Part shown: positions 4,123 to 30,344 of the stretch, in pieces | Layout of the letters: each line of letters begins with the position of its first letter | Numbering within the stretch: the first letter of the stretch is position 1 | Made by a program: the position numbers and the translations under genes | Notes under the pieces: model-generated | Seen by the model: only the letters and a program-made list of their open reading frames with translations | What the model was told of the DNA's origin: nothing | The model's database searches: none | Source of the DNA: Acidobacteriaceae bacterium | Lineage (GTDB): Bacteria; Acidobacteriota; Terriglobia; Terriglobales; Acidobacteriaceae | DNA: 64,000 nt | Assembly (NCBI GenBank): GCA_028283625.1 | Contig: JAPWKG010000016.1 | Coordinates: 1-64,000, forward strand | Direction: 5' to 3'

Positions 4123-6921
4123 CTAGCTATTTGCTTTCCGAGTCACAGAAACCCGGCGAGGAGTCGCCGTGGCCTTCACCGCTATTCGGAGAACTCCGTC
4201 TGCTTCCGGCTCCAGCTCCAGCGTCTGGTCAACCGACTCAATCGCATACTTGCCCTTCGGCAAGCCTGCAATCACGACGCGTCCGCTCTCCGCCGCCGTT
4301 GCTTCGAATTCAAGATCGAAGACGAAGCTCTGCGACTTAGGCGTCCAGATAACAACACGTTCGCGGGCAAAACGTGCACCGATCACTTCAAGATCGACAC
4401 GCTGCTCCTCTGTACGCAGATGCAGACGACGACGCACGCCATCTCGCGGCGTAATCTGCAGCACATCCTTTTCTTCCACCAGCTCACCGCCGAAGCAGAA
4501 GCGACCGAAGATAGCATCATCCGCAACCACAGTCGAAGCAGAACGCAATGCACCGCAATAGCCCAGATCCGTTTCCGAGGAGTAGTACCACGGCCCGCGA
4601 TGATGCGGCTGGCCCAGCCAGGTATGGCCATGCGACTCCGGCTCAAAGCCTCCGCCCGTTCCGCCATCATTGGCCTCGCCCGGGAACCAGTAGCCAAAGC
4701 CGGACTGGCTGGTGCCCGTATTCATCAAAGCCCATGTGCTCAGGTAGGAAGCATATCCCAGGCGCACAGTCGCGTCCGGCACAGCGGCCTCATGCAATGC
4801 GTGGTCCAGCACAGCCCACCCACCCATCTGCGACATATACGTCAGCGTGAACGCGTCTCCACCCTCAGCGCGATAATCCGAGCCATAGTAGTAGTACGCC
4901 TTCTCCACCACGCCACGGCAGAAGAGGTTCGCCCGCATCTGCGTCACCATGAACTTACGCAGAGCCGTCGGTGTTACCCCTGCAATATGCGGATGTTCAT
5001 AGGCATAACGCACAAGCGCTTCCGTTGATTCAAAACCGGTCGAGTCAAACGCATACTCTGAGCCGAAGAGGTTTGCTCCGCCTGTGACGAAGTACTTCAC
5101 CTTCTTCTCCCAGTGAATACGCAGTTCCTCCGCCTTCGCGTGCCAACCCACCCTATCCAGCTCTTCAATCAGCTGCGGAATCACAACCTCGTTGTAGAAG
5201 CCTGTTTCATACGCTTCCCAGTTGATGATTTCCTTGGGCACGGTAAACAACGCCAGCGCCGTTCCGTGTGCACGCTCCAGATACTCATCCCGCGTCATCT
5301 TCATCTTCAGCCCGGGATAATCGCGTGCCGTGCGGTACATCCCCCAGTACATCACAATGATGTGCGGATAGTCATACGGACGCCACATGTGCAGCTTGCC
5401 CTTCGGGCCCGGGTCCGGGCTATCGCGATTTTGCTTCCAATCGAGAATGCCGTAGATGCCATAGCTGTACGACTCCTGCGTGGTGCGCTGCAAACCGCCC
5501 CACACGAAGTGCTCAATGTAGTAATCCAACGCTTCCACCTGCGCCTGATCCGGATACTCCGCCAGCTTGCTGGCCAGATACGCAGGCTTGCTCAGCCCCG
5601 GATCATCACAGGTGACTTCGTAAATGCGCCAGCTCTTGATGCGGTCGTAGTTATCCGGCCCCAGCATCACCTGCGATTCCATATTCCACTCCGCGAGCAA
5701 GCCGTTGTACCACTTGCTCGCATCGCGGAACTGATGCTTGGCGATAAAGGCGCCGCGCTTGCGGATCAACGTCTCCAGCGGTTCGCACGCAAAGAACTCC
5801 AGCAGCGTCTTGCGGCCATCGGCCTGCTCCACCGTAATCAGGTTCTCTCCGAGATGCGAGAACTGGATGCGATACAAGTTGCGTCCGTTCTTCTCGCCAA
5901 GAGAGACGATCTTCGTCTCTTCAGGATGCTCGGCAATCAACCGCTCAATCTTGTCCTGCGAGCGAATCGCCAGGCAGGTTGAAAGATCTGTAGGCACCGT
6001 CATTCCCGGCGCTACATCCATATCAAGACCGCCGACCTCAACCAACCGCTGCCGGACCGATCCGTAATCCTTCGCCCAGGCCAGCTGGAAGCCATAGGTT
6101 TGTTCTGCCTTCTCGCTTCCTGCGGGAGCAAGCGTAAGGCTGGTATGCGGTTGACGCCAGGTACCACCTTCTTTCTTGACCGCTTCCCCTGCGGCAACCG
6201 AGTGCACATACGCGCGAAAGATCTGCGGCGTGGTCTTGGTCGGATGCGTGCGATCCCAAAACTCCAGATGCGTGTTGCGCTCCGGCGTCATCACCAGATA
6301 GGGGCCCACACTGTTGGAGCGCATCCAGAACAGGAAGGAGCCATTGCCGGAGACAAAGCTGTGCTTCAATACAGACGCCGTCGGCTTCTCCTTACCATCG
6401 AAGCTCGAATGCATCGGCAACGGCACCGCCAGGTCACCCACCTCGATGCTCTGTGAGGAAAGGTTGCGCAGCGAGATGCTCCAGCGCAGCGCGCTACCAT
6501 GCGGCTCCAACCGGACAATCACCTGCAGCGCCTTGCCCTGCTGATCCTGCGCAAGATACTCCGCAGCACAACCGCCATGGCTTGCCTGCTGCAGCTTTAC
6601 CTGAGCCGCGGAAAGCTGCGTCGAATCCAACGTTTGCCACTCACCCTCGGGGCGACGCCACTGCACCAGAACTTCACCCAGCTTCTGTCCGTTGGCAATA
6701 TAGTTCGTCGTGTACGCATCCCCTGCATAACGCAGGCTTGTCAACGCACCGCCGGCAGCGACCAGCAAAAACGGTGAGGTGGCCGAAGCCACCTCCGCCA
6801 GCGCTTTCACGCCGGCGCCGCTGGAGCTAAGCGCAAAAGCTGCGCCGCCCACCACAGGTCCCGTCAAAAAGGAGCGACGCGACAGCTTAGCCGTCGTCAT
6901 TTTGCTCAAAGAATCCTTCAT
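4123..6921 (-). CDS. Tat-exported DUF5695-like protein, candidate (alpha/alpha)6 glycosidase
   Basis: This 932-residue protein carries a twin-arginine signal (SRRSFLTG, residues 14-21) and so should be exported folded. An N-terminal beta-rich region (about 45-330) is followed by an alpha-helical barrel-like region with the signature Y-D-Y-P-H and, near residues 618-630, the acidic cluster FGSE...FDSTGFE. The same landmarks occur in the protein at 20051-22816, so the two are distant paralogs. From memory the family is DUF5695. The fold and context suggest a glycosidase, but no activity is established. It lies 14 bases downstream of the GH127 gene and is surely in its operon. In this locus it may remove a sugar from plant hydroxyproline-rich glycoprotein; that is inference. 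Confidence 0.8.
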   Translation of the reverse strand: MKDSLSKMTTAKLSRRSFLTGPVVGGAAFALSSSGAGVKALAEVASATSPFLLVAAGGALTSLRYAGDAYTTNYIANGQKLGEVLVQWRRPEGEWQTLDSTQLSAAQVKLQQASHGGCAAEYLAQDQQGKALQVIVRLEPHGSALRWSISLRNLSSQSIEVGDLAVPLPMHSSFDGKEKPTASVLKHSFVSGNGSFLFWMRSNSVGPYLVMTPERNTHLEFWDRTHPTKTTPQIFRAYVHSVAAGEAVKKEGGTWRQPHTSLTLAPAGSEKAEQTYGFQLAWAKDYGSVRQRLVEVGGLDMDVAPGMTVPTDLSTCLAIRSQDKIERLIAEHPEETKIVSLGEKNGRNLYRIQFSHLGENLITVEQADGRKTLLEFFACEPLETLIRKRGAFIAKHQFRDASKWYNGLLAEWNMESQVMLGPDNYDRIKSWRIYEVTCDDPGLSKPAYLASKLAEYPDQAQVEALDYYIEHFVWGGLQRTTQESYSYGIYGILDWKQNRDSPDPGPKGKLHMWRPYDYPHIIVMYWGMYRTARDYPGLKMKMTRDEYLERAHGTALALFTVPKEIINWEAYETGFYNEVVIPQLIEELDRVGWHAKAEELRIHWEKKVKYFVTGGANLFGSEYAFDSTGFESTEALVRYAYEHPHIAGVTPTALRKFMVTQMRANLFCRGVVEKAYYYYGSDYRAEGGDAFTLTYMSQMGGWAVLDHALHEAAVPDATVRLGYASYLSTWALMNTGTSQSGFGYWFPGEANDGGTGGGFEPESHGHTWLGQPHHRGPWYYSSETDLGYCGALRSASTVVADDAIFGRFCFGGELVEEKDVLQITPRDGVRRRLHLRTEEQRVDLEVIGARFARERVVIWTPKSQSFVFDLEFEATAAESGRVVIAGLPKGKYAIESVDQTLELEPEADGVLRIAVKATATPRRVSVTRKANS

Positions 6922-6935
6922 CCCTGCTCTCTTTC

Positions 6936-9338
6936 TTAAGCCTTTGGTTGTGCCGTTGCGGAGCTGGACGTCTCTCCCGGCTTTGCAGTAAATAAGCGAA
7001 CACCGAAGACCGGGCCTGCGGTCGAACGGTCATGCGGCAGGAAGCGAACCCGGATCGAGCTCTTGTTCTGCGTCAGCTCGGTTGGGATCACATACTCCAC
7101 ATCAAAGAACTTACCCGGGCGATCCTCATGCAGCTTCTGCGTTGCCAGCAGCACGTTGTCAACAAGAATGTCGAAGCTGCCGCCCCGCTCTCCGCCCCAG
7201 TACGTTGCCTGCAACACCAGCTGTCCCGGCTTGGTCTTCATCGAGAACTCGAAGTAGCCTCCCGAGCGTGCCTCGCGTCCCTGACGGCCGCGATACGTAT
7301 CCGGGTAGGACTGTTCCGAGGTCAGGTTGTGATCGCGCTCCGGCTGCATCTCGCCAAGGTGCATCACATCCACGGAGCGTGCCGCAATGTCACGCGCCTT
7401 CGCCTGTTCCGCAGCAAAGATCACCTCCTGCTGCTTCCATTCGCTCTCCGAGAAGCGGCTGAAGTACACCGCGCTACGACGCTGATACTGCGAGAAGAAC
7501 GGCACAAACGTCAGATCGGCAGGACGCACAATGCCGTTCGTTGCGTAAATGCCCTTCTTTTCATCGGTCGGCTTAAAGCTCTGCGTAAGGTTTTCGCCCA
7601 CCATCGCCGGATCATCGCTGTCCCACTTCTTCTCCACCGAACCCAGGTCTGCAGAAAGCACCATCGGCCCGCGCAGGAACGCAACGGTCTTCTCATCGCC
7701 CACCGTCGACTCCATACGAATCTGCAACGGCAGCGAGATGACAATCACATCTCCCTGCTTCCAGTGGCGGTGCAGAGCGGCATAACCCTTCTGCGGGGTA
7801 AAGCTTTCCGCCTTGCCATTGACCGTAATCTTGGCCTGCCCCTCGGCCCACTTGGGAATACGAAGCGCAATCGTAAAGCGGCCTGGCTTCTGCAACGAGG
7901 TCAGCGTCAAGCGTGACTCCGGCTCAAACGGATAGTTCGTCTCCAGCCGCAGCTTGGCCTCCCGCTCCTGCCAGCTTGCTTCCGATGCAATGTACAGGTT
8001 CACCAACAGCGTGTCGCCGCTCTGCCAGTAAATCGACTCACCATGCTTAGAGTGACTCTCCATTCCCGTGCCAACACAGCACCAGAACGCATCGTCATCA
8101 GTAGACGAGTAGCCTCGCTCAGCCGCGGTCAGCAGAGGCGTCATATAGGTGAAGCCTCCCGTCGAAGGATCCTGCGCGGCCATGACATGGTTCAGATGGG
8201 CGCGCTCATAATAGTCAAACCAGCTACCATCCGGCTGCCAGCTGTACAGATGGCGCGTCAGCTTCAACATGTTGTAGGTGTTGCAGTGCTCGCAGGTCTG
8301 CTCCGTAATATGCTGCGAAACCGTATCCGGCTCAGAGAAATACTCGCGATCAGCGTTGCCGCCGATGACGTAGCTGTGATGCTGCGTCACTGCAGTCCAG
8401 AAAAACTGCGCCGCATTACCCGGCGCAGGATCGCCGGTGATCTCGTGAATACGCGCCAGACCGATCAGCTTCGGGATCTGCGTATTCGCATGGAAGTTCG
8501 CAAGCTTATCCTGTCCGGCCTCCAGCGGGTCCAGAACACGGTGATCATAGATGCGCTGCGAAATCTTCAGCCAGCGCTCATTCTTCGTGCGCACATAGAG
8601 CTCGGCATAGCTTTCGTTCAACCCGCCGTACTCGCAGGAAAGCAGCTTCTGCATCTGCTCTTCGTTCAACGCATCGAACATATCCGCGAAATACGTCGCC
8701 AGACCGATCGCCACGTCCAGAGCCTGCTGGTTGCCCCATCCTTCGTTCACATCCAGCAAGCCTGCGAACACCTTGTGCACGGTATAGAGTGGGGACCACG
8801 AACCGTTGAGGTCAAATCCTCCGGAGTGGATATCCCCCTTCTTCACTTCGTCAAAGACCGTGATGCCGTCAACGATCTTGCCATCCTTCAGCTTGCGGCC
8901 AAGTGCACCGACGTAGCCGTTGCCGCGCGCCTTCTGTGCACGCGCCAACTCCACCACGATGTAGTCAGCCCGCTTGCGGCAATCATCATCACCGGTCTGC
9001 CAGTACATCTCCACCAGAGCCGTCATGTAATGGCCCAGCGAGTGACCTGCGATCGTGTCGTCTTCCCAGCCGCCGTAAATCTTGCCCTTGGGGGGAAGCC
9101 CCGCATACAGCATGAAGTTGTGCAGCAACCGATCCGCACTCAGGCGCAACAGGTACTGGCGATTTTTCTCCACGGCGGTGGCATACACCGAGGGCAGCAA
9201 CCGCACCGAGGACAACGGCAACGGCTCAGCTTTCAGCGGGATGCTGACGCCATGCTCAGCAAGAGCAACAGACGGAAGCGTAGCACTGGCCGCCACAGTG
9301 GCAGCCCCGAAAAGGAATTCACGGCGATTCGCACGCAT
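6936..9338 (-). CDS. GH127-type beta-L-arabinofuranosidase (DUF1680), Tat-exported
   Basis: The enzyme should release L-arabinofuranose from beta-linked arabino-oligosaccharides such as those on hydroxyproline in extensins. The 800 residues start with a Tat signal (RREFLFG). The family's metal site is visible: E350-x-C352 (EHCNTYNML) and the C420-C421 pair (FWCCVGTGM). This matches the spacing of the Zn-binding Glu, Cys, Cys, Cys of Bifidobacterium HypBA1, where one Cys is the nucleophile. GH146 has the same site, so the exact family is open. The ATG at 9338 is chosen over an upstream in-frame codon at 9416 because the signal peptide starts there and GAGG precedes it. A GntR-type palindrome lies 21 bases upstream. 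Confidence 0.9.
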   Translation of the reverse strand: MRANRREFLFGAATVAASATLPSVALAEHGVSIPLKAEPLPLSSVRLLPSVYATAVEKNRQYLLRLSADRLLHNFMLYAGLPPKGKIYGGWEDDTIAGHSLGHYMTALVEMYWQTGDDDCRKRADYIVVELARAQKARGNGYVGALGRKLKDGKIVDGITVFDEVKKGDIHSGGFDLNGSWSPLYTVHKVFAGLLDVNEGWGNQQALDVAIGLATYFADMFDALNEEQMQKLLSCEYGGLNESYAELYVRTKNERWLKISQRIYDHRVLDPLEAGQDKLANFHANTQIPKLIGLARIHEITGDPAPGNAAQFFWTAVTQHHSYVIGGNADREYFSEPDTVSQHITEQTCEHCNTYNMLKLTRHLYSWQPDGSWFDYYERAHLNHVMAAQDPSTGGFTYMTPLLTAAERGYSSTDDDAFWCCVGTGMESHSKHGESIYWQSGDTLLVNLYIASEASWQEREAKLRLETNYPFEPESRLTLTSLQKPGRFTIALRIPKWAEGQAKITVNGKAESFTPQKGYAALHRHWKQGDVIVISLPLQIRMESTVGDEKTVAFLRGPMVLSADLGSVEKKWDSDDPAMVGENLTQSFKPTDEKKGIYATNGIVRPADLTFVPFFSQYQRRSAVYFSRFSESEWKQQEVIFAAEQAKARDIAARSVDVMHLGEMQPERDHNLTSEQSYPDTYRGRQGREARSGGYFEFSMKTKPGQLVLQATYWGGERGGSFDILVDNVLLATQKLHEDRPGKFFDVEYVIPTELTQNKSSIRVRFLPHDRSTAGPVFGVRLFTAKPGETSSSATAQPKA

Positions 9339-9356
9339 AAAGGGGACCTCGCGAGA

Positions 9357-9370
9357 AGTGTATACAAATA
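9357..9370. promoter_or_regulatory. Predicted FCD-GntR operator (TGTATACA) in a divergent promoter region
   Basis: The perfect 8-bp palindrome TGTATACA (9359-9366) has an AAAT flank on one side. It lies between the divergent GH127 and DUF885 genes and would overlap a TATACA-type -10 element for GH127. The same motif recurs at 13580, 19985 and 30331, upstream of other genes of the island. A second small palindrome, ATACGTAT, follows at 9369-9376. Confidence 0.6.
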
Positions 9371-9432
9371 CGTATGCTATTGTGAAGCAGCGCTGCCAAT
9401 CTATGATTTGAGCCACGAAATCAGGAGTCGTT

Positions 9433-11183
9433 ATGCGGTTTCTTTGTCGTTTCTCCGCCTTTCTCTTAGCCTTCCCTACGCTTGGACATGCAGCTCATGC
9501 ACAGGCGCCTGTCATGCCCGACGTCATTCAGCGCTACAGCGCGGATCGTCAGGCACTGGAAGCGACCTACACGGTTCATTCCTCCGTCGCACGACTTAAC
9601 CGCCTCCAGAGCTTTGACGAAGAATCCCTGAAGTCGCTCAAGCAGCAGAACTTCAGCAGCTTTTCCAACTCCGATCAGCTGGACTATTTATTGCTGCAGA
9701 ATCTCCTGCAGGGCGACCTGCATGATCTGAGCCTCCAGCGCACGCAGCGCAAAGCGATGGAGCCCGTTCTCCCGTTCGCTCCTACTCTTGAGACGATCTT
9801 CGAGAAGAAGCGTCTGATGCAGCGCCCGGACGCCGAAGCGACCGCAAAGCAGCTCACCGAAATTACCGACACCATCACACGTGCCGAGCACGATCTGGAC
9901 CCCAAGAACACGGCCGGCAATCATGTGGTTGACCCCGTCACGGCCAACCGCGCCGTCGGTGCCGTCATGGATCTGCAAAGCAACCTTCACACCTGGTTTG
10001 ATCAGTACAACGGCTACGATCCTCAGTTCACCTGGTGGGATGTCGGCCCCTACCGCGACACGGACAAAGCGCTCAGCGGCTACATCGACTTTCTGAAGAA
10101 GAGCCTCATCGGCATTGCAGCCGACGACAAGACCACCATTATTGGTGACCCTGTCGGTCGTGATGCGCTGATGAAGGAACTTGCCGTCGAGCACATTCCC
10201 TACACCCCAGAAGAGCTCGTCGCCATCGCGCAGACCGAATACGACTGGTGCATGAAACAGATGCTGATCGCCTCCCACGAGATGGGCTACGGGGATGACT
10301 GGCACAAGGCCGTCGAGAAGGTAAAGACCATGCACGTCCCGCCGGGCGAGCAGCCGGACCTTATCCGCAAGCTTGTGCTGCAGGGCGATGAGTTTGTGAA
10401 AAAGAACGATCTGGTCACCGTGCCGCCTTTGGCCGAAGAGACCTGGCGCATGATCATGATGACGCCCGAGCGTCAGCTCGTGAATCCGTTCTTCACCGGC
10501 GGTGACGAGATCAGCGTCTCCTACCCGACCAACACGATGACCTACGCGCAGCGCGAGATGAGCATGCGCGGCAACAATATCCCCTTCGCTCATGCCACGG
10601 CTTTCCATGAGATGATCCCGGGACACTTCCTGCAGTACTACATTGCGCAGCGTTACCATCCCTATCGTCAGCCGTTTGAGACACCGTTCTGGGTTGAGGG
10701 CAACTCGCTCTGGTGGGAGATGCTCTTCTGGGATCGCGGCTTCGACAGCACCCCGGAAGAACGTGTCGGCGCCCTTGTCTGGCGCATGCACCGCTCCGCA
10801 CGCGTCATCTTCACCATGAACTTCCACCTCGGGAAGTGGACGCCGCAACAGTGCGTACAGTTCCTGATCGATGCGGTGGGCTTTGAGCCTGATAACGCAA
10901 CCGCTGAGGTACGCCGCTCCTTCGACGGCTCAGTAGGCCCGCTCTACCAGTGCGCCTACCTTATGGGTGGCCTGCAGTTCCGCGCCATGCACCACGAACT
11001 GGTCGACTCCCACAAGATGACCGACCGTGAGTTCCACGACACCATCCTGCAGCAAGGCGCCATGCCGCTTGCCCTACTGCGCGCTTCCATGGAACACGAG
11101 AAGCTGACACCGGACTACAACCCTCAGTGGAAGTTTTATGGTGAGCATCCCACCCATGCCCCACTGAACATATCGGAGATGAA

Positions 11184-11187
<4 letters not shown>
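9433..11187 (+). CDS. DUF885 family secreted metallohydrolase/peptidase-like protein
   Basis: This is a 584-residue protein with a signal peptide ending at AHAQ (residue 24). It belongs to the DUF885 family, whose members carry a gluzincin-like zinc motif. Here the motif is HEMIPGHFLQ, with H392 and E393 followed by GH. Substrates are not established for most members, though peptidase activity is expected. CAGGAG eight bases upstream supports the ATG. The stop codon overlaps the start of the S9 peptidase gene (ATGA), so the two are coupled. In this locus it could shorten peptides released from a proline-rich glycoprotein, which is inference from context. Confidence 0.85.
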
Positions 11188-13460
<2,273 letters not shown>

Positions 13461-13481
13461 ACAAAAGCTTTATGAATTTGG

Positions 13482-13519
13482 GCGTAACGCGTAGTCACGG
13501 ACGCGTTACGCTTTTTTTT
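13482..13519 (+). terminator. Rho-independent terminator after the S9 peptidase gene
   Basis: A 10-bp perfect stem GCGTAACGCG/CGCGTTACGC is followed by eight T's. It separates the peptidase unit from the TonB receptor promoter. Confidence 0.93.
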
Positions 13520-13579
13520 CGCCTTAAAATTAAAGCTGCGTGAAATGAATGCGTAATTATCGCTAAATCTGTATTGCAT

Positions 13580-13591
13580 TTTGTATACAAA
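13580..13591. promoter_or_regulatory. Predicted FCD-GntR operator upstream of the TonB receptor
   Basis: TTTGTATACAAA is a 12-bp perfect palindrome 135 bases before the receptor ATG. It is the best match of the four related sites in the window. The remaining leader (13592-13714) shows no other clear element. Confidence 0.65.
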
Positions 13592-13726
13592 TTCGGGATA
13601 CTTCCTTCATTCGTACCAAAGTTTAGTGGCACCCGGTTGATCGACAGTTCCTCTACATCCTGTGTTTCACGAGGAGATGCTTTATCGACCGGTGCTCCGC
13701 ATTTGATTTTTTTTGAAGGAGGCTGT

Positions 13727-17518: not shown

Positions 17519-17530
17519 CTCCCACAACCG

Positions 17531-17574: not shown

Positions 17575-17624
17575 GCACCATACTCTTCAACATACTCAAC
17601 CGCTACAACAAGGAAGGTCCTTTT

Positions 17625-18362
17625 CTACCAGACCCCACGCTGTCCCTGCTGATGGATCACATCCGCAATACGCTCTGCGCCGTTCACCCAGTTCGCAATC
17701 AGAGCCTGCTCTGCGATCTCCGGCCGGCCCTCTCGAATCGCTTCGATGATCTGGTTATGCTCCGAAACCGCTACATACAATTGATCCAGGATGTTGCTTG
17801 CATAAAGCCGCCAGTAACGCTCGGTCTGCGGCTTCACCGCGTTATGCAGTAGCAGCAGCCGTGGTCCTGCACCAGCCTCCACAATCAAACGGTGAAACTG
17901 CATGTCCAGGTCGAAGATGCTTCGTCCATCCAACTTGCCTGTCTGGGCAATGTCGTTCAGCTCGCGATTAATGGGCGTGATGCTTTCTACAATCTCCAGA
18001 CGCTTCTCTTCCGAGAGCACTGCGGTGTTTGCCCCTGCAAGTCCTTCGATCCTGGAAACGATGGCATAGAGCTCGCGAGCATCTTCATGCGTCAGCGGAG
18101 CCACCATCATGCGTGAGTTCAGACGAGCTTTCTGCTCAATCACATAGCCTTCACGCTGCAACCACTGCAATGCGCTGCGCACAGGCGTCCGACTCATCCC
18201 GAGCTTACGGCTCAGCTCCGTCTCGATGATCCAGGCGCCTGGAGCCAGGTTGCCATGAACAATTAGCTGACGAATCTGCTGAAAGGCGAGATTAATACTG
18301 TTCCCGTGCTCAACCTGAGAGGACGGCTTACTACTCTGCGATTTTTTCGACGTTGGCGGCAT
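17625..18362 (-). CDS. GntR-family transcriptional regulator, FCD subfamily (likely regulator of the island)
   Basis: The 245-residue regulator has an N-terminal winged helix (about 25-90; AFQQIRQLIVHG, LSRKLGMSRTPVRSALQWLQ) and a helical FCD effector domain (about 100-235). The metal-binding positions D-x3-H (DMQFH) and the His of SEHNQ are visible. The third usual His aligns with Asn in IANWVNGA, so metal binding may be altered. FCD-GntR proteins bind short palindromes around TGT-AT-ACA, exactly the type found upstream of neighbouring operons, and sense sugar acids or amino acids. It probably responds to hydroxyproline or a pathway intermediate. The ATG at 18362 is used; a TTG four codons earlier is possible. 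Neither has a strong ribosome site. Confidence 0.9.
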   Translation of the reverse strand: MPPTSKKSQSSKPSSQVEHGNSINLAFQQIRQLIVHGNLAPGAWIIETELSRKLGMSRTPVRSALQWLQREGYVIEQKARLNSRMMVAPLTHEDARELYAIVSRIEGLAGANTAVLSEEKRLEIVESITPINRELNDIAQTGKLDGRSIFDLDMQFHRLIVEAGAGPRLLLLHNAVKPQTERYWRLYASNILDQLYVAVSEHNQIIEAIREGRPEIAEQALIANWVNGAERIADVIHQQGQRGVW

Positions 18363-18478
18363 AGAATTGCACAAGAATCTTAGTTATTCATCTTAGTGCA
18401 ACGCGTACTCGAATATGTGGAGAGAAACGGTCGCAGCCGTCTCCACCTTGATTACCCATACCGAATTTCGCCTACTCT

Positions 18479-19960: not shown

Positions 19961-19984
19961 AAGACAGAACTCCTCAGGAGAGAC

Positions 19985-20030
19985 TCGTGTATACGAATGC
20001 CGGTTCTCTTCCAGGGAGAACCGGCATTCG
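19985..20030 (-). promoter_or_regulatory. 15-bp stem-loop overlapping a GntR-type operator
   Basis: A perfect 15-bp stem (19994-20008 with 20016-20030, 7-base loop) sits 20 bases after the DUF5695-like stop. It could stop or stabilise the long operon mRNA, although no T-run follows. Its distal arm ends inside TCGTGTATACGAAT (19985-19998), a GTATAC-centred copy of the island's operator, just upstream of the permease ATG. The element may therefore both end the upstream message and control the permease. Confidence 0.55.
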
Positions 20031-20050
20031 TTGTGATTGGTTTCGCTGGA

Positions 20051-22816: not shown

Positions 22817-22841
22817 AACAAGACTCCGGGAAACGTAGAAA

Positions 22842-24035
22842 CTAACGGCTCAGGCGTAGAAGCACAACGCTGTGCGGACGCAGTGTTGTGTGAAAGCTCC
22901 CAACGATCGGATCCAGATCACGATGTGCCCACAGATCGCGCGCCTTCACAGGCTCTGTCGCCCCATAGCCGAGCTTGCTCATGGGAACATCGAAATCAAG
23001 CGGCATACGCCAGCGGCTGAAAATCGCAACCGCAAGGCTGCCATCGGCGAGCGGCTTACTCCACACCTCCAAAGGCCCTTCGGTGTAAACGCGATCGCCC
23101 TGGTGGCCCGCAGCATCCTGATCCACCGCAATCACTTCGCGGTTCATCAGAATCGTCTTCGTCTCCTCGCTCATCTTCGCAAGATCGTTGCCTGCAAGCA
23201 GCGGCGCCGCCAGCATCGCCCACAGCGTCATGTGCGAGATGTACTCATCCTTGCTCATGCCACCGTTGCCCACTTCCAGCATGTCAGGATCATTCCAATG
23301 CCCGGGGCCAGCAAACTTCGCAAGCCCGGCCTGCGAAAATCCGATCTTCTCCATCGAAGCATAGCTATCTTCAATGTCGCCGGTCGTACGCCATAAGCTG
23401 CCGCCGGTCTCCGCGCCCCAGCGCCATACCGCCTCCCAACCGTACTGGCAGAGCGAAAGCACAATCGGGCGCCCTGCTGCCTGCAGCGCGTCATGCATCG
23501 TCGTGTAGACCTGCAGCATCACCTGCTGAGCTTTGGCATGGTCATCGCCAGCCTGGTCCTTAAGATTCTTCGTATAGGAGCAGAGGTCGTACTTCAGATA
23601 ATCGACACCCCACTTCGCATACATCTCGGCATCCTGCTTCTCATGGCCTAGAGAGCCTTCATATCCTGCGCAGGTCTTTGCGCCCGGGGAAGAGTAGATG
23701 CCCAGCTTCAGTCCCCTGCTGTGCACGTAATCGGCCAGCGCTTTCATATCGGGAAATTTCTTGTTGGGATGAATGTATCCCTGCGCGTCGCGCTGCCCTT
23801 CCCACGTATCGTCGATGTTGACGTAGACATAACCAGCATCGCGCATTCCGCTGGAGACCAACGCATCCGCAGCCGCGCGAACATCCTTGTCCGTTACATG
23901 CTCGGCAAAGTGGTTCCAGCTATTCCAACCCATCGGTGGCGTGGGGGCCGGCGTGCTCTGAGCCTGCATCACCGGCGCAAACAGCGAAAGGATAATTGCC
24001 AGGCCACTGCCCGACATTAAGGTTGCAAGCTTCAT
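22842..24035 (-). CDS. GH27 alpha-galactosidase, secreted
   Basis: This 397-residue enzyme should hydrolyse terminal alpha-linked galactose with retention. A signal peptide (about 1-26, ending VMQAQ) is followed by the GH27 barrel start TPPMGWNSWN. The nucleophile D150 (YLKYDLCSY) and the acid/base D220 (WRTTGDIED) are both present, as is the WNDPDML motif. The C-terminal beta domain is complete. The ATG at 24035 is chosen over a TTG two codons upstream. It lies between the aldehyde dehydrogenase and DUF5695 genes of the hydroxyproline operon. Extensin serines carry single alpha-galactose units, so this enzyme fits a hydroxyproline-rich glycoprotein substrate; plant galactomannan or raffinose sugars are alternatives. 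Confidence 0.93.
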   Translation of the reverse strand: MKLATLMSGSGLAIILSLFAPVMQAQSTPAPTPPMGWNSWNHFAEHVTDKDVRAAADALVSSGMRDAGYVYVNIDDTWEGQRDAQGYIHPNKKFPDMKALADYVHSRGLKLGIYSSPGAKTCAGYEGSLGHEKQDAEMYAKWGVDYLKYDLCSYTKNLKDQAGDDHAKAQQVMLQVYTTMHDALQAAGRPIVLSLCQYGWEAVWRWGAETGGSLWRTTGDIEDSYASMEKIGFSQAGLAKFAGPGHWNDPDMLEVGNGGMSKDEYISHMTLWAMLAAPLLAGNDLAKMSEETKTILMNREVIAVDQDAAGHQGDRVYTEGPLEVWSKPLADGSLAVAIFSRWRMPLDFDVPMSKLGYGATEPVKARDLWAHRDLDPIVGSFHTTLRPHSVVLLRLSR

Positions 24036-24091
24036 CACCAAACCCCGCGGATGGAATTTCTTTACTGCAGAAGCAAAGCCTTGCCGTACAA

Positions 24092-24127: not shown

Positions 24128-24138
24128 AGTAGTTGAAT

Positions 24139-25740
24139 TTACTTGGACTCTACAACGTGAGAACCAGACTCCAGCTTGCCGTTCCACAAACGATAGATAC
24201 CCAGCTCATTGCGATCGCGCAGCTCAGGCGGCAGCGCAAACTGCGGTAGTCCCTGATACGCCACCGGGCGCACAAAACGGAAGATCGCCTGGCTTCCAAC
24301 CGAAGTCGAGCGCCCGTCCGAAGTCGCAGGATAGGGTCCGCCATGCACCATCGCATGGTTCACTTCAACCCCCGTTGGGAACGCATTCACAATCAGTCGT
24401 CCAACCTTGGTTTCCAGTACATGCAGCAGGTCTGCATACTGCACCAGATCTTCCTCCGTAGCAAATACCGTTGCCGTCAGGTGGCCTTCCAGAGCCTGCG
24501 CAGCCTGCATCATCTGCGCTGCCGCGCCGCAATGTACCAGCAGCGTTACCGGCCCAAAGATCTCTTCTGAGAGCGAGTGATCCGTAAGGAACGCCTCTGC
24601 CTTCACCTCAAGCAATGTACCCTGCGCCGCAAAGCCAGCTCCCGCCTCCGTGCCGACAGAAGTAGCCAGAGAGCTCTTCGCCGAAACCGAGCGATCGAAC
24701 ACCTTCGCAATGCCTTCCGTCAGCAGATTGAACGAAGGGCTCTGCGTCACACTGGCGCGCAGTGTTTTGGTAAAGTCTGCGGCCAGCGCTTCTTCCACGA
24801 ACACCATTCCTGGCTTCGTGCAGAACTGTCCTCCGCCAAGCGTGAACGACTGATGCAGGCCTGTCGCCAGCGCCTCGCTCTTTTCCTTCAACGCTCCCGG
24901 CAGAACAAAGACCGGGTTCGTGCTGCCCATCTCGGCATAAACCGGAATCGGCTCCTTGCGCGAAGAGGCAAGGTCCATCAGCGCGCGTCCGCCGCGGAAC
25001 GATCCCGTAAATCCAACCGCCTTCACCGCCGGGTGCTGCACCAGACGCGCACCCACTTCGTGGCCTTCATCAAAGAGCAGCGAGAAGGTGCCCGCAGGAA
25101 AGCCAACCAGCTGCACCGCAGCGTTAATAATCTGCGCCACCAGCTCACCCGTACCAGGGTGCGCTGGATGCGCTTTCACAATCACAGGATTTCCCGCAGC
25201 CAGCGCAGAGGCCGTATCGCCACCTGCCACAGAAAATGCCAGCGGGAAGTTGCTTGCTCCGAAGACCACTACCGGGCCCAGCGGGCGAAGCATGGAACGA
25301 ATATCCGGCTTGGGCGGTGTGCGCATGGGGTCAGCGGTATCAATCCGCGCATTCACCCACGAGCCATCTTCCAGAACACCGGCAAACAAACGCAGCTGTC
25401 CGCTCGTGCGGGCAACCTCTCCCGTCAAACGCGGGCGCGGCAACGCTGTTTCCTGATTCGCGCGAACAATCAGTTGCTCGGCTGCGGCATCAATGCCATC
25501 CGCAATCGCACGCAACAACTTTGCACGTTCCATACCAGAGCTACGCGCGAACAGAGGCGCAGCTTCTACAGCGCCTGCCACGGCACGCTCAACGTCAGCG
25601 GCTGAAGCCGAAAAATACTCCGGCTCCAGCTTGCCGCCATCGGCAGGGGAATAGCCGTGGAAGCTGTTGCTGCCGCTCTCGGCCAAAGCTCCAGCTATCC
25701 ACGAACGACCATGCAACTTCTCCACGGCTACACTTGCCAT
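24139..25740 (-). CDS. 2-oxoglutarate semialdehyde dehydrogenase (NADP-type ALDH)
   Basis: This catalyses the last step of hydroxyproline catabolism, oxidising 2,5-dioxopentanoate to 2-oxoglutarate in the cytoplasm. The 533-residue ALDH shows the nucleotide-binding region (FGASNFPLAF, IVKAHPAHPGT), the catalytic Glu in YAEMGSTNP and the catalytic Cys in GGQFCTKPG. These variant motifs are typical of the ketoglutarate semialdehyde dehydrogenase subgroup rather than of general ALDHs. It starts 15 bases after the deaminase gene, whose product is its substrate. No membrane or signal segment is present. Confidence 0.92.
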   Translation of the reverse strand: MASVAVEKLHGRSWIAGALAESGSNSFHGYSPADGGKLEPEYFSASAADVERAVAGAVEAAPLFARSSGMERAKLLRAIADGIDAAAEQLIVRANQETALPRPRLTGEVARTSGQLRLFAGVLEDGSWVNARIDTADPMRTPPKPDIRSMLRPLGPVVVFGASNFPLAFSVAGGDTASALAAGNPVIVKAHPAHPGTGELVAQIINAAVQLVGFPAGTFSLLFDEGHEVGARLVQHPAVKAVGFTGSFRGGRALMDLASSRKEPIPVYAEMGSTNPVFVLPGALKEKSEALATGLHQSFTLGGGQFCTKPGMVFVEEALAADFTKTLRASVTQSPSFNLLTEGIAKVFDRSVSAKSSLATSVGTEAGAGFAAQGTLLEVKAEAFLTDHSLSEEIFGPVTLLVHCGAAAQMMQAAQALEGHLTATVFATEEDLVQYADLLHVLETKVGRLIVNAFPTGVEVNHAMVHGGPYPATSDGRSTSVGSQAIFRFVRPVAYQGLPQFALPPELRDRNELGIYRLWNGKLESGSHVVESK

Positions 25741-25755
25741 TTCACTTCTCCTTAC

Positions 25756-26676
25756 TTACACACCCGGAAACGGGGTCGACGTTACAGTGGGACGGTTCTT
25801 CAGAGCCTTGGAAAGCACAGCCTTCGTCTCTTCCAGCTCCGCACCCGTGATCTCAAGACGCGGTGCACGTACGGTAGCAGAACCCGTACCGGTCTCACCC
25901 TGCACCCACTTGATCAGCTGTACGAACTTCGGCACGGTGTCCAGACGGAGCAGCGGCAGGAACCAGTGATACAGCTCATAGGCTTCCTTACGCTTGCCTG
26001 CCAGCGCGAGCTCGAACAGCTCCACCGACTCCTTCGGGAACGCGTTCACCAAGCCAGCAACCCAACCCGTAGCACCCGCGTCCACAGCCTCAACCAGAAC
26101 ATCGTCCACACCGACGAAGATCTTCAGACGATCACCCAGCAGCTCACGGATGTGCGATACGCGACGAACATCCGCGCTCGACTCCTTGACCGCCTTCAGG
26201 TTCTCGAACTCGCCTGCCAGCTCGGCAATCTGCCAGGGCTGGAAGTCGGTCTTGTACGCAATCGGGTTGTTGTAGAGCATGCAGGGCAGCTTCGTCGCTT
26301 CCATGATGGCCACAACATGCGCCTTCATATCGCGCCAGTCTGCGGTGTACACATACGGCGGAAGCACCATCAGGCCGCTGCAACCTGCAGCCTCGGCATC
26401 CTTTGCCAGCTGCACAGCACCCTTGGTCGAAAGAGCGGAGATCGAAGCAACTACCGGCGTGCCGGTCTTCTCGGAAGCCTTGACGGCCGTCTTGAGAATG
26501 GCCACCTTCTCATCGTGCTCCAGCGTTGCGCCTTCGCCCAACGAGCCGAGCATCACCAGGCCCTTGCAGCCGTTTGCAAGCAGCCATTCGCAGTGCTTGG
26601 CCAGAAAAGCGTGATCGACGTCAAGGTTCGCGTCGAAAGGGGTCGTCATTGCAGGCATTACGCCAAACCAGTTCAT
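25756..26676 (-). CDS. DapA-family deaminase (pyrroline-4-hydroxy-2-carboxylate deaminase)
   Basis: The 306-residue TIM-barrel lyase of the DHDPS/NAL superfamily has the Schiff-base lysine K164 (KAVKES) and the catalytic Tyr135 (LYNNP). In hydroxyproline operons this family member removes ammonia and water from the dehydrogenase product to give 2,5-dioxopentanoate. The start codon overlaps the stop of the dehydrogenase alpha gene (ATGA), and the ALDH gene follows directly, so the order matches the pathway. Other DapA-like activities are possible in principle, but context makes this one by far the best call. Confidence 0.9.
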   Translation of the reverse strand: MNWFGVMPAMTTPFDANLDVDHAFLAKHCEWLLANGCKGLVMLGSLGEGATLEHDEKVAILKTAVKASEKTGTPVVASISALSTKGAVQLAKDAEAAGCSGLMVLPPYVYTADWRDMKAHVVAIMEATKLPCMLYNNPIAYKTDFQPWQIAELAGEFENLKAVKESSADVRRVSHIRELLGDRLKIFVGVDDVLVEAVDAGATGWVAGLVNAFPKESVELFELALAGKRKEAYELYHWFLPLLRLDTVPKFVQLIKWVQGETGTGSATVRAPRLEITGAELEETKAVLSKALKNRPTVTSTPFPGV

Positions 26677-27998
26677 TGAATCTCCTGTAGTGCAGCAGAG
26701 TTAGAGTCAGTTCGAAGTTGCGGCTCAGAGCTAAGAGCCGAAATAGGGAGCGGAAAGATGGGAGGACGCACCGAAGCGTTCTTCCATCCGAAAAGTGCTT
26801 CGACCGCGGGACCGCAAACACGTCCCTGGCAGGGGCCCATACCGCAACGCTTCTGCAGCTTGGCATCCGTCCAGGTGTTTTGCCCGTCGGCCAGCGCCTT
26901 AAGATCGCCGTAACAAACGTCTTCGCAACGGCAAACAATCGTGTCCTTGGCGGCCATCTGCAGCACTTCTGTTCGAAGCCGGAACGCTTTCTCCATCGCG
27001 GCGCCAAAGCCACGCTCTGAGGCAACGCGCGCGGACAGCTTCTGCGCCTGCGCCGTAAGACCGATCGCCATCAGACCAGCAGCTTCCCCCTGCAGCAGCG
27101 CAGCATCCACACCGGCTACCCCTGTGGGCTCTCCTGCGCAGAAGACGTGCTCTACGCTCGTACGCTGCAGCGCATCAACACGCACGCAACCGTCTTCAAG
27201 CGCGCAGCCCAGCAGCGCAGGCAGCTCAATGTTCGGTACCAGATGGAAGCCGCAGGCAAGTAGATCGCAGTCCACCTCCCAGCGGCGCTTGCCATCGGTA
27301 AACTCAACCTTTTCCAGCTGGCCTGCGCCATACGCTGCCACCGGCCAGCTTCCTGTGCGATATGCAACACCGCGCAGCGAAGAGCGCAGAGAAAGACCTT
27401 GCAGAATCTTGCCCGGCCGCTTCAGTAACGCGGTGGCAAAGGAGACCAGCTGCGAGAGAGGAGCCTGCTCGCAGATCGACAGCACCTTCGCGCCGTCCTC
27501 CTGCAGATGCGCCGCAATGGCCATCAACAACGGCCCCGTCCCAGCAACTGCAACGCGCTTGCCGCGCACATCGTAACCGTTGCGCACGAGCGCCTGCAGA
27601 CCACCTGCGCCAAAGACACCCGGCAACGTCCAGCCTGGGAAAGGAAGAAAACGTTCCCGCGCTCCGGTTGCAAGAATCAGCTTGTCATAGGCAAAGCGCT
27701 CGCCAACATTCTCCGCGTCGTTCCACGTTTCGAGCACGCCTTGCGCAAGCGCAGCCACAACACGGCGGCCGTGAAACAGCGTCGCACCGCTGGCAACAAA
27801 CTTCCCCGTCTGCGCCTGCCGGGCAGCATCGGGCTTATGCTCATCGTCGTTCCATCCGCGCCGCCAGATCTGTCCACCTGCAGCCGGGTTCTCATCCAGA
27901 ACGGCAACACGATGCCCACCCTGCGACGCCGCAGCGGCTGCAGCCATACCGGCCGGGCCCGCACCCACAATCAAAACATCCCAGTGCTGGCTGCTCAT
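26673..27998 (-). CDS. D-hydroxyproline dehydrogenase alpha-type subunit (FAD, BFD-like Fe-S domain)
   Basis: This 441-residue flavoprotein has an N-terminal dinucleotide fold (GAGPAGMAAAAAA, LDENPAAGG), a central NAD-binding-like fold and, from about residue 360, a BFD-like cysteine domain (CRCEDVC...CGMGPCQGRVC). This layout matches the alpha subunit of three-part D-hydroxyproline dehydrogenases and opine/octopine oxidases. It overlaps both neighbours by 4 bases: the small 2Fe-2S gene upstream and the deaminase gene downstream. The electron acceptor is unknown. Confidence 0.88.
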   Translation of the reverse strand: MSSQHWDVLIVGAGPAGMAAAAAASQGGHRVAVLDENPAAGGQIWRRGWNDDEHKPDAARQAQTGKFVASGATLFHGRRVVAALAQGVLETWNDAENVGERFAYDKLILATGARERFLPFPGWTLPGVFGAGGLQALVRNGYDVRGKRVAVAGTGPLLMAIAAHLQEDGAKVLSICEQAPLSQLVSFATALLKRPGKILQGLSLRSSLRGVAYRTGSWPVAAYGAGQLEKVEFTDGKRRWEVDCDLLACGFHLVPNIELPALLGCALEDGCVRVDALQRTSVEHVFCAGEPTGVAGVDAALLQGEAAGLMAIGLTAQAQKLSARVASERGFGAAMEKAFRLRTEVLQMAAKDTIVCRCEDVCYGDLKALADGQNTWTDAKLQKRCGMGPCQGRVCGPAVEALFGWKNASVRPPIFPLPISALSSEPQLRTDSNSAALQEIQ

Positions 27999-28249
27999 TG
28001 CATCGTCTCCACAACCATGCCTTCACGGCATGGAATCTGACACGTCCGCCGGTGTGCCACGCCATCGATCACAGCACGGCATTCAAAACAAATCCCCATG
28101 CCGCACAGCGCCGTACGCGGTTGCCCTGTCACCGAGCTTCTGCACGGCGCGTTGCTCTGCAGCAACGCGGCACTCACCATCGCACCGGCTGGAACCGTCA
28201 CAGGCATGCCGTTCACTTGCACGAGAACTTCTTTCCGCTTCTCAGGCAT
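27995..28249 (-). CDS. D-hydroxyproline dehydrogenase gamma-type subunit (small 2Fe-2S protein)
   Basis: This is an 84-residue ferredoxin-like subunit (Fer2_4 type). It has cysteines in an N-terminal C-R-S-S context and in the run CGMGICFECRAV, plus a later RTCQIPC that together would bind a 2Fe-2S cluster. It would pass electrons between the flavin subunits. The ATG at 28249 is chosen because a longer reading frame to 28420 would lie wholly inside the beta-subunit gene. It overlaps the beta gene by 8 bases and the alpha gene by 4, consistent with a fixed subunit ratio. Confidence 0.88.
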   Translation of the reverse strand: MPEKRKEVLVQVNGMPVTVPAGAMVSAALLQSNAPCRSSVTGQPRTALCGMGICFECRAVIDGVAHRRTCQIPCREGMVVETMQ

Positions 28250-29363
28250 GCGCAGACTCTCCTCGAAACACATGGGCAGGCAAAAACGGATCGCGATCAA
28301 TCGCAGACTCACGCTGCAAGAGATGATCCGCAAGCAATCGAGCCGCAGCCGGTGAGTTCGTAATACCGAGCCCTTCAAAGCCCATCGCAAGAAACACCGT
28401 GGGGTCAGGCGTTGGTCCAATCAACGGCAGCTTGTTCGGCGTTGCCGCGCGAAATCCGGTCCAAACGCGGATCGCGGAGAGATCGCGAATGCGTGGCATG
28501 TACTCACACGCCCGGTCAATCATCTGCTTCAAAATCTTGTTATCGACATCGTGCTCGGCGTCGCCGTACTGACGCGAAGAACCGATCAGCAGCTGCCCGG
28601 TCTGGCGCGGCTGCACGTTGAATGCAACCGAGTCGGCCGTAAGCTTATGCGCACTCTTCAAGTAGCCAAGCTCTACGAGCTGGTGATGTACAAACCCCGG
28701 GTAGCGATCCGTAATTACAAGGTGTCCCTTGCGCGGCTGCACCGTAATCCACGGCACAAGGCTCGTATCAACCCCGGTTGCAATCACGATGGAGCCGGCA
28801 GAAAGCGCACTGCCATCCTGCAAGCGAACGATACCCTTTGCCGCCTCCACAGGACGAACGCCGCGGATCAGCTTTGCGCCCAGAGCAATCGCCTCATCCA
28901 GAAAGTAGCGTGCAGCAGCCGGCGGATACACAACCGCATCCTCAGGCACTAATAGTCCACCTGCGAGCCCTTTGCGCAGCTCCGGCTCAGCCTGCGCCAG
29001 CGCTTTCTCATCGAGCACCTGCGAGGACACACCGATGCTTGTATAGGTCGCCTGCTTGGCATAAACCTCCTGCATCTCCTCCCCGTCTGCGGCAACCCAA
29101 AGCGTTCCACGCTGCTCATACTCCACCGAATCGGGAAGCGCGGCACGCATCTTCTGCCACAGCTCGCGCCCGTAACGCGAAAGCGCAAGCTGTGCAGGCG
29201 AATCATCCATCACAACAACATGTCCCATACCCGCAGCGCTGGCCGCGCCACCCGGCACACGAGGCTCAACCACGCCTACGCGCAAGCCCGCACGCGCGCA
29301 CTCCATCGCGCAGGCAGCTCCAACAATCCCAGCACCGAGTATCAGGACATCAAAGTGTTGCAT
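28242..29363 (-). CDS. D-hydroxyproline dehydrogenase beta-type subunit (DAO-fold FAD oxidoreductase)
   Basis: This 373-residue flavoprotein of the D-amino-acid oxidase/sarcosine oxidase family has a GxGxxG start (ILGAGIVGAACAMECA) and a C-terminal FAD motif (LAMGFEGLGITNSPAAARLLAD). It probably holds the site that oxidises cis-4-hydroxy-D-proline to the pyrroline carboxylate. Its ATG shares one base with the stop codon of the epimerase gene (TAATG), so the enzyme that makes its substrate is translated immediately before it. It forms a cluster with the gamma and alpha subunits downstream. Confidence 0.9.
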   Translation of the reverse strand: MQHFDVLILGAGIVGAACAMECARAGLRVGVVEPRVPGGAASAAGMGHVVVMDDSPAQLALSRYGRELWQKMRAALPDSVEYEQRGTLWVAADGEEMQEVYAKQATYTSIGVSSQVLDEKALAQAEPELRKGLAGGLLVPEDAVVYPPAAARYFLDEAIALGAKLIRGVRPVEAAKGIVRLQDGSALSAGSIVIATGVDTSLVPWITVQPRKGHLVITDRYPGFVHHQLVELGYLKSAHKLTADSVAFNVQPRQTGQLLIGSSRQYGDAEHDVDNKILKQMIDRACEYMPRIRDLSAIRVWTGFRAATPNKLPLIGPTPDPTVFLAMGFEGLGITNSPAAARLLADHLLQRESAIDRDPFLPAHVFRGESAHA

Positions 29364-30313
29364 TAGTACAAAATCCCGCCTCTGAACGGATCAGTCTCAT
29401 CAAACAACAGCGTCGACTCGCCCGTAATCCAGGCCTTTCCCTGAATCGTCGGCAGTACACGATCGCCTACACCCTGCACCGTACCCACGAAATGCGTGCC
29501 GAGAATACTTTCCTGGCGCCACTGCTGGCCAACCTTCAGCACGCCGTCCGCATACAGGCATGCCATCTTCGCGCTCGTGCCCGTACCGCACGGCGAGCGA
29601 TCAAACGACGCCCCGGGGCACAGCACAAAGTTGCGGCTCGAGTTCTCCGCATGAACAGGCTTGCCGAAGAGCTCAATGTGATCGATGTACGCACCATCAG
29701 CACCCGTAACACCTGCACGCGCCAGACTCTCGCGGATCGCGTGCGATACCTGAACCAGCTGATGACGATTTGCCAGCGTCAACTCGAACGGATGCGTACC
29801 AATCAGAAAGAACCAGTTCCCACCCCAGGCGATATCGCCCGTAAAGGTACCGAAGCCAGGAACCTCAACCGGAACCGCGCTCTTATAGCGATAGCTCTCT
29901 ACGTTGCGCACGCGCACCGAGCCGTCATCAAGCAGCTCGGCTTCCACAATACCCACCGGCGTCTCAATCTTGTGACGCCCCGGCTGCAATCTGCCCAAAT
30001 GCGCCAACGTCCGCACAACACCGATCGTGCCATGCCCACACATGCCCAGGTAACCGATGTCATTAAAGAAGATGACTCCGGTCACACACTCACGGTCCAC
30101 CGGCTCACACAACAATGCACCGACAACCACCTCAGAACCGCGCGGCTCACAGCAAACACCGGCGCGAAACGAGTCAAACTGGCTGCGGAAAATCTCCAGC
30201 CGTTCCTGCATACTGCCTGATCCGAGATCAGGGCCTCCCTCGACCACAACACGGGTCGGCTCACCCTCGGTATGCGAATCAATCACCCTTGCAGTACGGC
30301 ACTCTGTCGGCAT
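29363..30313 (-). CDS. 4-hydroxyproline epimerase (proline racemase family)
   Basis: The enzyme converts trans-4-hydroxy-L-proline to cis-4-hydroxy-D-proline, the first committed step of the pathway. The 316-residue protein has both catalytic cysteines, C92 (MCGHGTIG) and C242 (DRSPCGTGTSA), together with H94 and D238. A Cys/Cys pair marks racemases and epimerases; the trans-3-hydroxyproline dehydratases of the same family have Thr at the second position. It is the first gene of an eight-gene minus-strand run. No ribosome site is visible: a TACAAT -10 element lies only six bases upstream, so the transcript may be leaderless. Confidence 0.93.
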   Translation of the reverse strand: MPTECRTARVIDSHTEGEPTRVVVEGGPDLGSGSMQERLEIFRSQFDSFRAGVCCEPRGSEVVVGALLCEPVDRECVTGVIFFNDIGYLGMCGHGTIGVVRTLAHLGRLQPGRHKIETPVGIVEAELLDDGSVRVRNVESYRYKSAVPVEVPGFGTFTGDIAWGGNWFFLIGTHPFELTLANRHQLVQVSHAIRESLARAGVTGADGAYIDHIELFGKPVHAENSSRNFVLCPGASFDRSPCGTGTSAKMACLYADGVLKVGQQWRQESILGTHFVGTVQGVGDRVLPTIQGKAWITGESTLLFDETDPFRGGILY

Positions 30314-30319
30314 GGGGCA

Positions 30320-30344
30320 ATTGTAGACTAATTTGGATACAAAT
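30320..30344 (-). promoter_or_regulatory. Promoter and GntR-type operator of the hydroxyproline operon
   Basis: A TACAAT -10 element (30320-30325, minus strand) sits six bases before the epimerase ATG. Immediately upstream, ATTTGGATACAAAT (30331-30344) is a near-perfect 14-bp palindrome differing by one base from the consensus of the other island operators. It lies in the core promoter, where a bound repressor would block transcription. No convincing -35 is seen. Confidence 0.6.

Follow-up and report, generated by a model that had tools for sequence, protein, structure and literature searches.

A candidate locus for the catabolism of arabinosylated hydroxyproline-rich plant glycoproteins in a soil-dwelling member of the Granulicella group

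The window analyzed here is the whole stretch of 64,000 nucleotides (bases 1–64000 of contig 25) taken from an assembly of an Acidobacteriaceae bacterium, which has a length of 3.0 Mb, comprises 31 contigs, and is 84.8% complete. Granulicella, Terriglobus, and Acidobacteriaceae bacterium ZG23-2 are among the closest relatives, as judged by matches of DUF5695 proteins, and the organism is a Granulicella-group bacterium from soil. An island at 4123–30343 combines genes of putative glycosidases, peptidases, and transporters with an operon for the catabolism of hydroxyproline (Hyp). The original prediction had seen in it a locus for the use of extensin, and Pfam found all the gene classes named there within 4123–30313; the catalytic residues are kept.

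The reverse strand of the island starts with DUF5695 protein a (4123–6921; PF18951, 194 bits) and a GH127-clan, apparently GH146-type, β-L-arabinofuranosidase (6936–9338; PF07944, the GH127 middle domain, and DUF6805). Both contain twin-arginine motifs, SRRSFL in the former and NRREF in the latter; all export-type and twin-arginine translocation (Tat) N termini were judged by eye from the translations, without a signal-peptide program. Divergently, the forward strand encodes a DUF885 protein, a probable peptidase or hydrolase with a HEMIPGH motif (9433–11187), and an S9 prolyl-oligopeptidase/DPP-type peptidase (11184–13460; DPPIV_N and Peptidase_S9 domains), which keeps S618 and H723. An Oar-type TonB-dependent receptor follows on the same strand (13727–17518; PF25183 and CarboxypepD_reg). 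Its open reading frame (ORF) was called from 13574, and the probable start is the ATG near 13727, which is preceded by AAGGAGG. The arabinofuranosidase ORF was called to 9416, and the Tat motif places its start probably near 9338; thus, both called ORFs seem overlong at the 5′ end. The reverse strand then carries an FCD-GntR regulator (17625–18374), which has homologs in the loci fetched from 13 relatives of the same genus, an APC family amino acid permease as the candidate Hyp importer (18479–19960), DUF5695 protein b (20051–22816; PF18951, 1248 bits), and a GH27 α-galactosidase-type enzyme (22842–24041). Hydrophobic export-type N-terminal segments were noted in the GH27, DUF5695b, DUF885, and S9 proteins. 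Two exported DUF5695-like proteins, the S9 peptidase, the DUF885 hydrolase, the receptor, the permease, and the regulator had all been proposed before, and each of them is now matched by Pfam.

The bacterial pathway for trans-4-hydroxy-L-proline consists of an epimerase, a D-Hyp dehydrogenase, a deaminase, and a semialdehyde dehydrogenase. Pfam matches to all these families are found together in one reverse-strand operon (24139–30313), and the same set is found in relatives; the earlier claim of a complete route to 2-oxoglutarate thus holds at the level of families. Judged by these matches, the individual functions would be a 2-oxoglutarate semialdehyde dehydrogenase (24139–25740; an aldehyde dehydrogenase with C307), a pyrroline-4-hydroxy-2-carboxylate deaminase (25756–26676; DHDPS family, K164), and a D-Hyp dehydrogenase of three subunits, namely an FAD/BFD oxidoreductase subunit (26673–27998), a small [2Fe-2S] ferredoxin-like subunit recognized by the Cys pattern of its sequence (approximately 27995–28249), and a DAO-type catalytic subunit (28242–29363). 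Homologs of the ferredoxin-like ORF are located between the DAO and FAD subunits in several relatives. The putative 4-hydroxyproline epimerase (29363–30313) has the Cys pair typical of epimerases (C92/C242) and matches Pro_racemase PF05544 with 336 bits and NF052296 with 431 bits, which is below the cut-off of 450; its homolog in Mucilaginibacter L133 reaches 605 bits against a cut-off of 376 for its own model. The difference from the known pathway is that the window operon is joined to glycosidases and a peptidase.

The original prediction compared the arabinofuranosidase with the GH127 enzyme HypBA1 of Bifidobacterium. The clan and the intact Glu-Cys3 Zn site (E376, C378, C446, C447) were borne out, whereas the analogy was not: the best solved relatives are 5opj, 6yqh, and 8qf8 (E 4.2e-137), followed by 8k7x (9e-52), and HypBA1 (3wkw) matches at 2.5e-12 only. 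The alignment with the nearest solved relative covers residues 67–593 and 632–809. We take 5opj and 6yqh to be BT0349 and 8k7x to be Bll3HypBA1, both of family GH146. By its closest solved structure, and without a tree of CAZy members, the window enzyme is thus classed as GH146-type. The available part of PMC10850190 describes BT0349 and Bll3HypBA1 as GH146 enzymes of solved structure, the former acting on arabinan-derived sugars and the latter on the β1,3-linked arabinofuranose (Araf) of arabinogalactan protein (AGP). According to the same part, the GH146 enzymes XeHypBA1 and Bll4HypBA1 cleave Araf-β1-Hyp, so the new assignment does not weaken the link with Hyp. The GH27 protein has both catalytic Asp residues claimed for it (D152 and D222), and its nearest relative is an α-galactosidase (1uas, 2.5e-97, versus 1.8e-33 and 3e-34 for GH27 β-L-arabinopyranosidase).

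The AlphaFold2 model of DUF5695b (pLDDT 88.3, pTM 0.90) contains a β-sandwich, an (α/α)6 barrel, and a second β-sandwich. Its top Foldseek matches in the PDB are both entries of the PL27 enzyme BACCELL_00875 (5nok/5no8; E 2.4e-29 and 7.6e-29), with a TM score of 0.81–0.83 by target and 16–17% identity, and GH94 phosphorylases are far behind. The N-terminal β-sandwich and the barrel are shared with BACCELL_00875, while the C-terminal β-sandwich is extra. A profile search also reaches PL27 (E 8.6e-5, in three weak stretches); in this weak alignment, R552, N555, Y556, E654, H722, and Y723 pair with identical PL27 residues, and D658 is opposite a Glu. The prediction is therefore that DUF5695 is distantly related to the polysaccharide lyases of family PL27. 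According to the available part of PMC8377490, PL27 targets the rhamnose–glucuronic acid (Rha-GlcA) unit of gum arabic; since the genes linked to DUF5695 point to arabinose, the hydrolase and lyase readings both fit the family.

A shared palindrome, TTTGTATACAAA, was found post hoc in the intergenic stretches of the window and ZG23-2 and then counted in relatives outside this discovery set. With up to two mismatches, the window has three sites (starting at 9357, 13580, and 30332), all at island promoters and nowhere else: AGTGTATACAAA, with two mismatches, where the GH146 and DUF885 genes diverge (9357–9368, forward); the perfect TTTGTATACAAA, without an assigned strand, upstream of the TonB receptor (13580–13591); and TTTGGATACAAA, upstream of the Hyp operon at a distance of 19 bp from the start of the epimerase (30332–30343, forward). 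The expected number is 0.5, and three sites were reached in 1 of 100 shuffles. The same-genus relatives (19 stretches, 14 relatives) gave 25 matches, versus 6.2 expected from single-base shuffles and two for the reversed motif. Sixteen of these 25 are located at −150 to +400 of the starts of island-type genes (epimerase, GH127-clan, S9/DUF885, GH27/TonB, DUF5695b/GH43, DUF5695a, and GH31). We infer that these candidate operators are paired with the FCD-GntR protein. The pattern TTGKATACAA has three sites in the whole assembly, two of them inside the island; the only site beyond it, G000:C31:13725-13734, may belong to a further unit of this regulon.

The two ZG23-2 loci are collinear with the window from the epimerase to DUF5695a, with order and relative direction kept and with 64–83% identity (up to 90% in a partial DUF885 match); the DUF5695a ortholog adjoins the GH146 gene there as well. 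The small ferredoxin-like ORF is the sole island gene without a separate match in ZG23-2, and the 20 kb past the ZG23-2 epimerase are unmatched by the window queries (E up to 1e-10).

An epimerase-family match was found in 29 of 61 genomes (60 relatives and the own genome). Inspection covered 23 epimerase loci, 12 from the same genus with a full-length epimerase and 11 from outside it, and the count was made with window genes as queries only. GH27, DUF5695, and/or GH127-clan genes are located within 20 kb of the epimerase in eight of the 12 same-genus loci (G002, G004, G009, G013, G015, G017, G020, and G022). The original prediction had named Hyp operons of close relatives devoid of glycosidases as the observation that would speak against it; with these eight loci, it passes that test. 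In two further relatives, G008 and G023, the glycosidase genes are on separate short contigs with GntR and DUF885 genes and, in G008, also with S9 and another DHDPS gene. The glycosidase genes of G012 are on a 13 kb contig without GntR, DUF885, S9, or DHDPS. DUF5695b is present in 10 of 28 same-genus genomes, and nine of these 10 have a full epimerase versus four of the 18 others (Fisher p 0.001); the tenth, G003, holds an epimerase fragment.

Queries for GH43, F16 (a family label of ours), GH31, and a larger GH127-clan enzyme were added later, with Pfam run on one member of each family. GH43 was found in six same-genus genomes, F16 in five, GH31 in three, and the GH127-clan enzyme, which has an F5/8 domain and a length of about 960 residues, in five. 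The GH43 is nearest to an arabinofuranosidase/xylosidase structure. In G002 and G022, a single stretch contains the Hyp operon, TonB receptors, GH27, DUF5695b and a, GH43, the permease, araB, araA, and the larger GH127-clan gene. The GH43, this larger enzyme, and araB/araA are thus further parts that fit the island.

The alignment of DUF5695 contains at least 565 relatives, of which the best-scoring 80 loci were fetched; they are therefore not a random sample. By their names, most are from Acidobacteriota or Bacteroidota, and the rest are from Alphaproteobacteria and a few other groups. All were searched by tblastn, with queries taken from the window and from same-genus genomes (E up to 1e-12). 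Hyp-pathway genes are present in 24 of the 80 (the epimerase in 21), arabinofuranosidase-type genes (GH127-clan or GH43, weak matches counted) in 46, and S9 or DUF885 in 29, while 19 combine Hyp genes with a glycan-side partner (GH127-clan, GH27, GH43, DUF5695a, or F16). The Cys pair is found in 20 of the 21 epimerase matches; one truncated match keeps the second Cys only. DUF5695 is thus a family that links Hyp genes, arabinofuranosidases, and peptidases. Whole genomes were searched for 32 hand-picked members of the 80, mostly isolates or long contigs. Exactly one racemase/epimerase gene was found in 28 of them and none in four, and in 18 genomes (11 + 5 + 2, the last two from coordinates) this single gene is within 25 kb of DUF5695b. 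A flat 1% assumption gives a binomial value of 2.7e-25 for at least 16 of 28 genomes, which indicates scale only, because the genomes are related.

Chance proximity was rejected as an explanation. Twenty control stretches of 20 kb from 10 of the 32 genomes, placed at hand-picked round coordinates and not at random, contain no Hyp gene, GH127-clan, GH27, GH43, S9, or DUF885; their only matches are four TonB, one permease, and one GH31. Among the 82 GH27 matches listed (E ≤ 1e-100, counted by hand), only five have a full epimerase match within 20 kb, and a sixth, in G003, adjoins the epimerase fragment. An ordinary GH27 gene is thus not an epimerase neighbor.

The nearly identical Mucilaginibacter loci L132 and L133 contain one run (approximately 3041–21574) of the deaminase, semialdehyde dehydrogenase, epimerase, D-amino acid dehydrogenase, DUF885, DUF5695b, a small ORF, araB, and araD, which ends with a GH27-like gene (25–26% identity, outside the Pfam scan), araA, a sodium symporter, and an AraR-type regulator (family scans on L133). 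Such a run places the handling of arabinose and Hyp side by side, as Hyp-arabinosides would demand. An araB with an isomerase gene is present in five of the 80 loci (L092, L112, L132, L133, and L139), and the isomerase of L112 is of the fucose-isomerase type. F16, a protein of about 783 aa with a Tat-type N terminus, was noted in 12 of the 80 (e.g., L097:5829-8174, L098:12881-15226, and L106:4960-7350). It has no Pfam match and no PDB match by single sequence or profile, and the strong conservation of its acidic and Trp motifs hints at a glycoside hydrolase outside the assigned families. A GH121-like role of F16 was considered and rejected: besides the missing Pfam and PDB matches, there is no likeness to the DUF5695 profile, and the model is unusable (pLDDT 57.5).

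These data support the island as a real co-inherited and probably co-regulated unit of sugar removal, peptide cutting, and Hyp catabolism. We read it, with a probability of roughly 0.73, as a catabolic locus for arabinosylated Hyp-rich plant glycoproteins. In this scheme, the exported GH146-type β-L-arabinofuranosidase, the GH27 α-galactosidase, and the two DUF5695 enzymes would remove O-glycans; the exported S9 peptidase and DUF885 protein would cleave the Hyp-rich peptide; the Oar-type receptor and the permease would take up fragments and Hyp; and the epimerase, three-subunit D-Hyp dehydrogenase, deaminase, and semialdehyde dehydrogenase would convert Hyp to 2-oxoglutarate. The FCD-GntR protein may govern these units through operators of the TTTGTATACAAA type. 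The one-island idea of the original prediction thus stands, while two of its specifics do not: extensin, still the best single guess, is not separated from other arabinosylated Hyp-rich proteins, and use of the glycan is unsupported, for reasons given below. As for DUF5695, we suggest tentatively, at slightly less than even odds, that it is an as yet unassigned carbohydrate-active enzyme family, which shares its fold with PL27 and acts on the glycans of Hyp-rich glycoproteins, perhaps as a Hyp-O-arabinoside hydrolase in the role of GH121, and that it marks a one-locus harvest of sugar, peptide, and Hyp in Acidobacteriota, Bacteroidota, and Alphaproteobacteria.

Several observations weigh against this interpretation. 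The reversed control of TTGKATACAA has two forward and five reverse matches in the assembly and is at least as common, so the pattern is not enriched genome-wide but only placed at the island; of the same-genus relatives, G015 alone has a motif match at the epimerase, and seven of the 19 relative stretches have none. In G016, only a 26% GH127-clan match, left uncounted, is nearby, and 10 of the 11 Hyp loci outside the genus (four of the 11 on contigs no longer than about 10 kb) are standalone, with no window-type glycosidase in reach; the eleventh, G050, has a partial GH127-clan gene at the contig edge. Among the 80 DUF5695 loci, 14 have no partner gene, 56 have no Hyp gene in reach, and only 44 have full flanks of 10 kb; in 10 of the 28 genomes with a single epimerase, it is distant from DUF5695b or on another contig. 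Of a HypAA/HypBA2/HypBA1-type system, neither the GH43 nor the GH121 was identified in the window organism, although no search with an own GH121 model was made. Its genome, 15% of which may be missing, has no araA, only a 26% FGGY match for araB, and no match for the GH43 family of the relatives, and this leaves use of the glycan unsupported. Finally, the nearest solved fold of DUF5695 is an AGP-acting lyase, which fits another glycan.

An alternative reading has AGP as the target, on which a PL27-like DUF5695 lyase or glycosidase would attack uronic-acid-bearing type II arabinogalactan, the GH146-type enzyme would remove β1,3-Araf, the GH27 enzyme would remove α-galactose or β-arabinopyranose caps, and Hyp would come from the AGP backbone. 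AGP is likewise Hyp-rich, BACCELL_00875 is a Rha-GlcA lyase on the AGP of gum arabic, and one bifidobacterial GH146 cleaves β1,3-Araf of AGP (available part of PMC10850190). Nevertheless, we find this target unlikely given the low identity of DUF5695b to PL27, the five loci in which the linked sugar genes are araB with araA, araD, or the fucose-isomerase-type gene, and the absence of GH88/GH105, rhamnose, glucuronate, and galactanase families among the 10 Pfam-scanned of the 13 families that recur in at least four of the 80 loci. It is quite improbable that two loci adjoin by happenstance, a Hyp operon for free or collagen-derived Hyp and a pectin/arabinan cluster with GH146 and DUF5695: the linkage recurs in several phyla with differing gene orders, the island has a common upstream motif and a proline-type peptidase, and ZG23-2 is collinear. 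Such an arrangement would accord with the glycosidase-free Hyp operons common outside the genus, with the structure nearest to the relatives' GH43, and with the place of BT0349, the nearest characterized GH146, in a rhamnogalacturonan-I locus (available part of PMC10850190).

The glycosidases may also chiefly expose the peptide, so that the cell would use Hyp and galactose and leave arabinose to others. This is compatible with a locus for arabinosylated Hyp-rich glycoproteins, and the odds of the two are not additive; we regard it as possible but somewhat doubtful. The gaps in the own genome speak for it, as does araA, which is unmatched in five of the nine same-genus relatives with a full-length epimerase (G004, G008, G013, G015, and G016). 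On the other hand, araA is present in the other four (G002, G009, G012, and G017), G002 and G022 have araB and araA within the island, and the own-genome search covered araA and araB as arabinose routes in an incomplete assembly. Bacteria also have an oxidative arabinose pathway, which likewise leads to 2-oxoglutarate semialdehyde.

Among the closest described systems is xehypAA/xehypBA2/xehypBA1 of Xanthomonas euvesicatoria, which, in the available part of PMC6085000, uses GH43 and GH146 for the Hyp-arabinosides of extensin and has a predicted prolyl-oligopeptidase gene, described as a pseudogene, adjoining xehypAA; there, GH121 releases a disaccharide, and that part names no Hyp catabolic genes, DUF5695, or GH27. 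HypBA1/HypBA2/HypAA of Bifidobacterium longum likewise remove β-L-arabinofuranosides from Hyp-rich glycoprotein, as a route to arabinose in the available parts of PMC7263609 and PMC10850190, whereas the enzyme in the window belongs to the GH146 type, and peptidases and Hyp catabolism are further parts of the island. For uncultured Latescibacteria, GH127 was assigned to extensin, and the available part of PMC4454575 describes no Hyp pathway or linked locus. Thus, in the accessible portions of this literature, bacterial attack on plant structural glycoproteins consists of sugar removal with, at most, a predicted peptidase gene adjoining. Among the open-licence titles and abstracts listed, none joins Hyp catabolism with extensin deglycosylation (PMC5928203, PMC11062476, and PMC8397452, which contain all the terms, may be exceptions), and the open-licence literature searched has nothing with "hydroxyproline epimerase" together with "extensin". 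Here, sugar removal, proteolysis, and Hyp catabolism are combined in one locus, the parts of which recur jointly across phyla. This offers a testable function for DUF5695, named in only one paper of the open-licence literature searched, and for F16, and points to a soil route for the carbon and nitrogen bound in the Hyp of plant walls.

As for the surroundings of the island, the GC content in 2-kb steps has no clear break at its edges. A plasmid origin was considered and rejected: the sole segment searched, 28242–30313, has no plasmid match in the "near" mode. Two ORFs at the island edge (2623–3375 and 3365–4126) have no Pfam match, and the latter, rich in Arg, Ser, and Leu, may be a spurious frame. 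A sensor histidine kinase (PF06580) is encoded outside the island at 481–2538, and BshC of bacillithiol biosynthesis is encoded just beyond it at 33081–34715.

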